From positions 1-40,352 of the forward strand of contig JACUUH010000019.1 in NCBI GenBank assembly GCA_014859375.1: DNA of 40,352 bases. Reading direction: 5' to 3'. Under the pieces are notes generated by a model, which saw only the letters and a program-made list of their open reading frames with translations, had not been told where the DNA came from and searched no databases. Positions 11,035-40,352 of the stretch are shown piece after piece; within the stretch, counting starts at the first letter, position 1; each line of letters opens with the position of its first letter. A program made the position numbers and the translations under genes. This stretch comes from Gammaproteobacteria bacterium. GTDB lineage: Bacteria; Pseudomonadota; Gammaproteobacteria; Nitrosococcales; Methylophagaceae.

Positions 11035-11162
11035 ATTAACCTCAGTTCTGGATAAGAATAGTCAGCTACCCTATAACCAACAATGACTGACCAAGAAATA
11101 GCTGGTAAAACCACTAAAACAAAGGTGCTGGATGGCTGTGCTTATCCAGAACTGAGGTTAAT
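11035..11162. mobile_element. 128-bp MITE-like element with 22-bp perfect terminal inverted repeats
   Basis: The left end (11035-11056, beginning ATTAACCTCAGTTCTGG) and the right end (11141-11162) are perfect reverse complements over 22 bases, enclosing 84 bases with no coding capacity. The outermost bases read ATTAA and TTAAT, so a palindromic TTAA target duplication cannot be separated from the inverted repeat. It is either a non-autonomous mini-transposon or an insertion sequence reduced to its two ends by deletion. The parent family cannot be named from this alone. Confidence 0.75.
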
Positions 11163-39267: not shown

Positions 39268-39513
39268 ATGGATAAACAAACACAACTTGAACTGGAAGCA
39301 GCGGCGTTTCGTCGTTTACTCGCACATTTAGATGAAAGAAAAGATGTTCAAAATATTGACCTGATGAACTTGGCAGGCTTTTGCCGTAATTGCCTCGCAA
39401 AGTGGTATTTAGCTGAAGCTGAGCAAAAAGGACTCGATCTCAATTATGATCAGGCGCGTGAAGTCATTTACGGCATGCCATATCAACAATGGAAAGATAA
39501 ATATCAAATCTGA
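39268..39513 (+). CDS. DUF1244 family protein
   Basis: This 81-residue small protein matches the family by AFRRLLAHLDERKDVQNID, the two conserved Cys residues in GFCRNCLAKWY and the C-terminal YGMPYQQWKDKYQ. It is found in many proteobacteria without a known role; the CxxC-like pair could bind a metal, which is a guess. The ATG follows the ATPase stop by one base with GAGG just upstream, so it is the last gene of the ABC operon. Confidence 0.9.
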   Translation: MDKQTQLELEAAAFRRLLAHLDERKDVQNIDLMNLAGFCRNCLAKWYLAEAEQKGLDLNYDQAREVIYGMPYQQWKDKYQI

Positions 39514-39904
39514 TTATGGTCATGGTCTTCATGGCACAGACTATGTAAAAGTTTGGCCAATAAATCTATATCAGTGTGATTTTATTCTTTGGGACGAGCG
39601 ACTGTGACGATAGAAATGGTAGAGCGAATTTGTTGCAAATAATTTCGACAGCAACTGTACATCAACAGATGGAAAAACAGTCCGATACGTTTACTGATTG
39701 TGGTGCGCTGATACGACCTGTTGAAACGCATGTTGATTACCTGTGATAAGTTGCTTTATCAGCTGTGAGTCATCATTTTTCTTTAATTTAGAAAAAAATT
39801 CCATTGCGTTTGTAACAATCCAAAATCAAGTGTGTCTACGTTAGCAAGATTGGTCATATTTGGCTGGTTGTTTTTTATACTACTTAAACTTAAAGGAAAA
39901 TATT
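39514..39904. other. 391-base gap before the oxazolin gene: promoter region, no clear gene
   Basis: I see no conserved gene. Two short open frames exist on opposite strands (39576-39746 plus, and about 39587-39733 minus) without family homology or a convincing start. A small inverted repeat TGATAA / TTATCA with a GTTGCT loop is near 39744-39761. The last 100 bases are A/T-rich and carry the candidate promoter described separately. Confidence 0.6.
39811..39838 (+). promoter_or_regulatory. Candidate ECF-sigma-type promoter of the oxazolin gene
   Basis: TGTAAC (39811-39816) and TGTCTA (39833-39838) are separated by 16 bases. This fits the AAC-type -35 and GTC-type -10 elements used by many extracytoplasmic-function sigma factors. 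A housekeeping alternative is weak: TATACT at 39876-39881 has TTGGTC 20 bases upstream. Genes of the DUF692-dependent peptide systems are often under ECF sigma control, which is why I prefer it, but the call is inference. Confidence 0.45.
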
Positions 39905-40246
39905 ATGTCTATTTCTACAAACAAAACAACAATCGCATTAGCTGCAAGTGCGGCATTAACAGCTGGTCTAGCGCTTTCGCCAATGACTGTAAGTGCAGAC
40001 ACAAATCCATTTGCATCAACAGAACTATCAAGTGGCTATATGCAACTTGCTGAAGCTGAAAAAGCAAACGAAGGCAAATGCGGTGAAGCTAAATGCGGAG
40101 CTAACAAAGAAGGCGAAAAAGCCAAAGAAGGTAAATGTGGCGAAGCTAAATGTGGCGCCAATAAAGATGGTGCAAAAGCAGCAGACGGTGAAAAAGCCAA
40201 AGAAGGCAAATGTGGCGAAGCTAAATGTGGCGCTGACAAAAAATAA
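39905..40246 (+). CDS. hvfA: HvfA-family oxazolin: secreted RiPP precursor with three EGKCGEAKCG modules
   Basis: This 113-residue precursor has a Sec signal peptide (residues 1-31, cleavage in VSA before DTN). A short conserved leader-like block follows (FASTELSSGYMQLAEAE, 36-52), then a Lys/Glu/Gly-rich core with three EGKCGEAKCG modules (residues 56-65, 75-84 and 100-109). All six Cys are in the modules (C59, C64, C78, C83, C103, C108). In the HvfA/bufferin group, such Cys are modified by a multinuclear non-haem iron oxygenase (MNIO, DUF692) into heterocycles that bind copper or related metals. The ATG at 39905 has AGGA 7 bases upstream; an in-frame ATG at 39860 lacks one and would disrupt the signal peptide. 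A strong terminator follows the gene. Confidence 0.85.
   Translation: MSISTNKTTIALAASAALTAGLALSPMTVSADTNPFASTELSSGYMQLAEAEKANEGKCGEAKCGANKEGEKAKEGKCGEAKCGANKDGAKAADGEKAKEGKCGEAKCGADKK
40070..40231 (+). repeat. Tripled 30-base EGKCGEAKCG coding module
   Basis: Three 30-base units at 40070-40099, 40127-40156 and 40202-40231 encode identical decapeptides. The second and third differ from each other at only one base, while the first uses TGC codons and a different Gly codon. Linkers are 27 and 45 bases and share GEKAK before the later modules. This points to stepwise duplication of a module plus linker, with the later copies most recent. Confidence 0.9.
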
Positions 40247-40274
40247 GATCAGGTCAGCCGTACTAACTATAGTT

Positions 40275-40307
40275 TAAAAAAAGGGCTCAGTTTGAGCCCT
40301 TTTTTGT
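40275..40307 (+). terminator. Rho-independent terminator after the oxazolin gene
   Basis: A stem AAGGGCTC / GAGCCCTT with extra A-T pairs and a short AGTTT loop is followed by a T-run. It lies about 30 bases after the stop and 22 bases before the next start, so read-through is needed to express the following gene from the same promoter. Confidence 0.92.
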
Positions 40308-40328
40308 ATCATATCAGGAGAATAAAAC

Positions 40329-40352
40329 ATGTCTATGTGTAGTTTAGCAAGC
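40329..40352 (+). CDS. First eight codons of the next gene, candidate MNIO (DUF692) enzyme, cut by the window end
   Basis: An AGGAG site (40316-40320) lies 8 bases before ATG, and the frame reads MSMCSLAS up to the window edge. That is too short to identify by sequence. In HvfA-type loci the enzyme that modifies the peptide normally follows the precursor, so an MNIO (HvfB) is the expected product. A second small peptide, an ECF sigma factor or an unrelated gene remain possible. Confidence 0.4.

Follow-up and report, generated by a model that had tools for sequence, protein, structure and literature searches.

Among the known systems closest to the locus reported here is the oxazolin system of nontypeable Haemophilus influenzae. 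The modification originally described for oxazolin is now assigned as 5-thiooxazole, and HvfBC is described as converting the six Cys residues of full-length HvfA to copper-binding 5-thiooxazoles ahead of Sec export, while HvfX is called uncharacterised (PMC13419390). Antoine et al. 2025 place precursors with the same motif in a Buf_EGKCG/oxazolin group; according to this source, oxidored_molybd genes and ferric-reductase genes are present in a few EGKCG clusters, and some bufferin precursors are encoded away from MNIO genes (PMC12452194). The words "Methylophaga", "MsrP" and "sulfoxide" are absent from the main text of that paper.

Several described regulons join such genes to methionine sulfoxide reductases. 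In H. influenzae, RpoE2 controls msrAB and a DoxX/UPF0276/DUF2063 cluster (PMC7907618), which we take to be hvf, and in the RpoE2 and Neisseria meningitidis sigE regulons alike a single sigma factor governs methionine sulfoxide reductase together with a DoxX/DUF2063 cluster (PMC7907618, PMC2893595). Caulobacter sigma-F controls YedY, DUF692, DUF2063 and DoxX genes from GTAACC-N16-CGAA (PMC3511200). In Escherichia coli, MsrPQ is induced by copper and reactive chlorine and preserves the activity of a periplasmic copper chaperone (PMC9302797). As far as these sources reach, EGKCG/oxazolin precursors have already been published, and so has joint regulation of Msr-type and hvf-like genes, in Haemophilus and in Caulobacter; Neisseria has a comparable regulon.

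The locus described here probably supplies the precursor for an oxazolin-type (HvfA/Buf_EGKCG) system that is split in Methylophaga-like bacteria, with hvfA-hvfX-msrP-msrQ at one locus and hvfBC supplied in trans. As in H. influenzae, the precursor is of the exported type and carries six Cys and three repeats, and the genome also encodes an HvfB-type MNIO, an HvfC-type partner and an HvfX-type DoxX protein. Unlike in H. influenzae, the repeat is EGKCGEAKCG rather than AEGKCGEGKCG, hvfBC lies at another locus and msrPQ follows hvfX (PMC13419390).

An HvfA-family precursor gene at the end of the window

The window analysed is the whole of one contig, C63 (40,352 nucleotides), from a draft genome of 2.35 Mb in 106 contigs. 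Judged from its sequence, the last complete gene, hvfA, encodes an HvfA-family (oxazolin, Buf_EGKCG) RiPP precursor of the exported type. The open reading frame, on the forward strand, runs from an ATG at 39905 to a stop codon that ends at 40246, and its product has 113 residues. The N-terminus, judged by eye, is Sec-like and ends in VSA, and the translation carries a NPFASTELSSGYMQLAEA block ahead of the core. A PF....L.SGY block in this position is common to all eight precursors aligned, three of which come from other lineages. Three exact EGKCGEAKCG repeats follow on the same strand (40070-40099, 40127-40156 and 40202-40231) and hold all six Cys of the protein. The DNA pattern for the decapeptide matches at these three positions (40070, 40127, 40202), compared with no match in 100 dinucleotide shuffles of the window.

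The product scores 53.3 bits against NF050137, the NCBIfam model for the KCGExKCG repeat domain of the HvfA family (cut-off 19.5). Against the stricter HvfA equivalog NF050188 it scores 50.3 bits, below the cut-off of 95, which the HvfA of all four relatives tested also missed (31.9-60.7 bits). Pfam has no model that matches the precursor at an E-value of 0.01. The first-pass annotation, made from the letters of the window, had described a secreted-type precursor of this length with three identical decapeptides enclosing every Cys and had assigned it to the HvfA/oxazolin type; both statements hold. Relatives of hvfA were found in 19 of 24 same-genus genomes, and the five misses are genomes that are 67-86% complete. 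By analogy with the H. influenzae peptide, HvfA is probably modified, exported and copper-binding.

The truncated gene is hvfX, followed by msrP and msrQ

The gap behind hvfA holds an intrinsic-terminator-like hairpin at 40277-40305 on the forward strand, which folds as AAAAAAAGGGCUCAGUUUGAGCCCUUUUU (-18.4 kcal/mol for a 69-base stretch, z -3.4). A similar hairpin with a T-rich tail stands 3' of hvfA in 28 of 30 related loci (35 were supplied, and five in which hvfA was not located were dropped). The terminator that had been proposed behind the precursor gene is backed by folding and by conservation, but the consensus terminator scan lists none at 40277-40305, we think because the T-run is pulled into the stem. 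If it acts, the hairpin would probably keep the precursor in excess over hvfX-msrPQ.

A new gene does start behind the hairpin, as had been noted, with an ATG at 40329 preceded by AGGAG, and the contig ends 24 bases into it (40329-40352, forward strand). C63 ends in the same 55 bases with which contig C53 begins, an overlap of the kind we would expect at a break in a de Bruijn graph. On C53 the gene continues as hvfX (C53:32-616; full protein 194 residues, DoxX-type), followed by msrP (C53:625-1584; 319 residues), msrQ (C53:1585-2208; 207 residues) and then aceE. HvfX is 94% identical to that of the nearest relative, which scores 230.2 bits against NF050144 (cut-off 80); the MsrP and MsrQ of the same relative reach 460.6 bits (cut-off 207) and 176.2 bits (cut-off 130). 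MsrP also matches the solved chain 1xdq, which we take to be E. coli YedY.

The contig overlap, together with the HvfX and MsrP matches, identifies the truncated gene as hvfX, not as the MNIO that the first-pass annotation had supposed. The genes it expected past position 40352 were found in part: the DoxX-type gene is there as hvfX, and the DUF692 and HvfC-like genes are on another contig, C80. No DUF692 gene appears over 10.4 kb of C53 open reading frames, where one had been predicted within a few kilobases. Since the maturase is encoded at another locus, both here and in relatives, its absence downstream does not refute the RiPP reading.

Msr genes beside hvf genes in relatives

Related loci were fetched by HvfX alignment, and the best 80 of 531 confirmed stretches were examined over up to 8 kb on each side, less at contig ends. 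Among these best 80 of 531, msrP stands beside hvfX in 38, and 36 have hvfX with msrP while hvfB is absent from the stretch. These 36 contain hvfA in 35 cases, an ECF sigma gene in 35, an anti-sigma gene in 34, msrQ in 34 and aceE in 33; the single one that lacks hvfA and the ECF gene begins inside hvfX. Gene order is conserved in 35 loci of the same set of 80. Two further members of the set, neither labelled Methylophaga (L179, L191), carry hvfABC-hvfX-msrP-msrQ in one run, and hvfB is present in 24 of the 42 among the 80 that lack msrP.

Msr genes adjoin hvf genes outside the family too. Besides L179 and L191, the genome G039 has the order msrP-msrQ-hvfA-hvfB-hvfC, and in G250, which belongs to another family, the hvfX and msrP matches lie 24 bases apart. 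HvfA of G039 contains no Met after the start, although msrPQ adjoins its gene, and so HvfA itself need not be an MsrP substrate.

It could be that hvfA and msrPQ are merely neighbours and that MsrPQ is ordinary envelope repair, the proximity having no functional meaning. In its favour, of 41 class-level genomes that have MsrP as well as HvfX, 37 carry the two more than 10 kb apart or on separate contigs. These 41 belong to a sample of 62 genomes, out of 232 searched, whose HvfX reaches 130 bits or more, with ten genomes whose HvfX exceeds the family cut-off at lower scores lying outside it; MsrP is beside HvfX in 4 of the 62, three of them in this family. We nevertheless regard mere proximity as unlikely, given the order conserved in the 35 loci among the best 80 of 531, the msr/hvf adjacency in four other genomes and the published common control in Caulobacter and Haemophilus. 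The variety of msr/hvf arrangements, few as they are outside the group, speaks for a functional connection of the Msr pair with the hvf genes.

A stronger form of this connection would join HvfX and MsrP(Q) in a single redox module, spanning membrane and periplasm, that maintains the copper-thiooxazole peptide itself, keeping the peptide or the copper redox-active. The 16 kb around hvfX-msrP in G250 gave no msrQ match, as though HvfX were able to replace MsrQ. We hold this idea to be very doubtful; if true, it would give a function to the uncharacterised HvfX family. At L109 (6462-8047), hvfX and msrP are adjacent, and 16 kb around them contained neither an msrQ match nor a precursor gene.

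A probable control region, conserved in relatives and partly deleted in this genome

In relatives, genes for an ECF sigma factor and an anti-sigma factor lie upstream of hvfA and diverge from it. A tblastn search of 35 loci gave 34 anti-sigma matches, all with an H-x3-C-x2-C motif, and the anti-sigma of one relative (G174) passes the NCBIfam anti-sigma-E model NF052368 with 53.8 bits (cut-off 50). The pair resembles RpoE2-HrsE of H. influenzae and sigE of N. meningitidis, which likewise combine an ECF sigma with a ZAS-type anti-sigma (PMC7907618, PMC2893595). In those systems MsrAB is at a separate locus, whereas here MsrPQ is inside the hvfA-hvfX run. The Caulobacter sigma-F regulon differs in having DUF2282 precursors, NrsF as the negative regulator and YedY at a separate locus (PMC3511200); sigma and NrsF genes are also named for the Buf1 clusters of Antoine et al. 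2025 (PMC12452194). The stretches around the hvf/msr genes of G250 and G039 gave neither an ECF nor an anti-sigma match.

In the window this pair is broken. What is left on the reverse strand is a remnant of the ECF sigma gene (39691-39804), with 37 codons and then a stop, and one of the zinc-type anti-sigma gene (39537-39698), which has lost its N-terminus and the first Cys of H-x3-C-x2-C and has an early stop. Compared with the locus L118, a deletion of 571 bp took most of the pair, ending at a short near-repeat (39697-39701). The presence of several separate lesions argues against a mere assembly artefact. The same ECF query has only one other match in the genome, 28% identical. Since the pair is a deletion remnant, control of the operon would have been lost or taken over by something else, and the functional operon supposed by the first-pass annotation is uncertain in this strain.

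An ECF-type promoter-like site, GTAACA-N16-GTCTA, lies upstream of hvfA at 39812-39838 on the forward strand; it is the only match in the window, and both boxes are intact. Motif and spacing are conserved: among 38 regions upstream of precursor genes (the window among them, as well as two tandem pairs and an orphan precursor from a different locus) the site is exact in 36 and found in 37 with one base allowed. The two regions that are not exact are L075, which has GTATA, and that of the second gene of a tandem pair. The -35 box resembles GTAACC of Caulobacter sigma-F (PMC3511200), and GTCTA resembles the neisserial sigma-E -10 sequence CGTCTAAH (PMC2893595). With a leading T (TGTAACA-N16-GTCTA), the pattern has a single match in its own genome, the hvfA site, and 40 matches in 25 genomes (17 of the 25 with a match) versus 8 for the reversed control.

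Two other candidate elements were rejected. A sigma-70 scan of 39500-40352 returned two sites, both on the reverse strand, against 2.4 expected in shuffles. A 5'-leader hairpin behind the -10 box (39838-39880) folds in single sequences, and the alignment consensus keeps only three of its pairs. In same-genus genomes, a second exact TGTAACA-N16-GTCTA is often seen 547 bases off in the opposite direction (for example G015:C4:41837-41864), apparently within the sigma gene coding sequence, where it may be an internal promoter or just conserved codons.

The maturase genes at a second locus

A single MNIO gene, hvfB, was found in the genome at C80:29270-30058, adjoining hvfC. HvfB scores 449.7 bits against NF003818 (cut-off 360) and aligns with solved DUF692 and MbnB chains; HvfC scores 300.8 bits against NF050145 (cut-off 142). 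Thus hvfA, hvfB, hvfC and hvfX do not form one operon here: hvfBC is on C80, and hvfA-hvfX spans C63 and C53. An MNIO was found in 23 of 24 same-genus relatives, and in all 19 genomes with both, hvfA and the MNIO gene are on different contigs, which in a draft assembly gives by itself no distance between them; one of these assemblies is listed with three contigs. Distances come from longer contigs. In Methylophaga aminisulfidivorans MP, a strain that NCBI now lists under M. thalassica and that has sigma and anti-sigma matches next to hvfA, hvfA and hvfB are about 600 kb apart on one contig of 2,266,798 bases, and in G250 hvfABC is 506 kb from hvfX-msrP, again on one contig. In the class-level sample of 62 genomes with strong HvfX, HvfB is within 10 kb of HvfX in 46, elsewhere or on another contig in 13 and undetected in 3. 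The split is a minority arrangement in this sample and appears to be fixed in the Methylophaga-like group.

Promoter-like copies also precede some MNIO genes. In G002 the exact TGTAACA-N16-GTCTA stops about 55 bases short of an MNIO match, in G015 the pattern lies about 460 bases before one, and a copy with one mismatch precedes hvfB on C80 and in the nearest relative; a site with at most one mismatch occurred within 450 bases in only 2 of 19 upstream regions, some of them from outside the genus. Such copies would tie the hvfA and hvfB loci into one regulon.

A MITE-like element with perfect 17-base inverted ends is present in two copies, one in the window (11040-11157, 118 bases) and one on C80 (L004 4908-5134, 227 bases). 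On C80 the element separates hvfB from a conserved gene; the nearest relative lacks it at this position. The C80 copy, the 571-bp deletion and the two further lesions in the anti-sigma remnant would fit a decaying cassette, in which HvfA is either an unmodified Cys peptide or silent. Such decay is improbable in our view, as hvfA, hvfX, msrP, msrQ, hvfB and hvfC are all open reading frames that share about 90-98% identity with their counterparts in the nearest relative, and the promoter-like site has kept both boxes. Finally, a canonical hvf operon in which the truncated gene is the MNIO, a reading favoured by the 46 of 62 class-level genomes with HvfB within 10 kb of HvfX, is almost certainly wrong and, barring an assembly error in the 55-base overlap, already refuted, since C53 continues with hvfX-msrP-msrQ-aceE, hvfB lies inside C80 with other genes on both sides, and hvfA and the MNIO gene are on different contigs in all 19 relatives with both.

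A proposed split copper-buffer and repair system

In the split oxazolin-type system that we favour, HvfA would be synthesised in the cytoplasm, where its six Cys may be oxidised by HvfB with HvfC from the second locus, to 5-thiooxazoles by analogy with H. influenzae. The peptide would then be exported through Sec and bind copper in the periplasm. The same operon would yield HvfX, a DoxX-type membrane protein, and MsrPQ, predicted to reduce methionine sulfoxide in periplasmic proteins. Because MsrPQ responds to copper and reactive chlorine in E. coli, we read the operon as a joint copper-buffer and oxidation-repair unit, in which metal buffering and repair are produced together. In relatives it is probably read from a sigma-E-type promoter by the divergent ECF sigma, held by the zinc (ZAS) anti-sigma.

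Within the open-licence PMC literature, the following appear to be new: the hvfA-hvfX-msrP-msrQ run shared across the group, together with its ECF/ZAS pair and promoter-like site; the maturase in trans for that run; and, in this genome, the deletion of the control pair. With precursor, HvfX and MsrPQ in one run beside their own sigma pair and the maturase encoded elsewhere, the Methylophaga-like group offers a natural and non-pathogenic test case in which to examine the role of HvfX, modification in trans, and how methionine sulfoxide repair relates to copper buffering. Searches that start from MNIO neighbours will miss split-off precursors of this kind.

Additional genes

Two further genes were observed in the course of this analysis. 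One relative (G006) has a second, short HvfA-like gene at another locus (L072 7004-7177), with its own GTAACA-N16-GTCTA. On C80, the gene upstream of hvfB (L004 4154-4903) encodes a conserved, exported-looking protein of about 250 residues, which has no Pfam or NCBIfam match. It lies upstream of hvfB at 15 of 34 MNIO loci searched, with one genome entered twice, and every one of the 15 belongs to the Methylophaga group.
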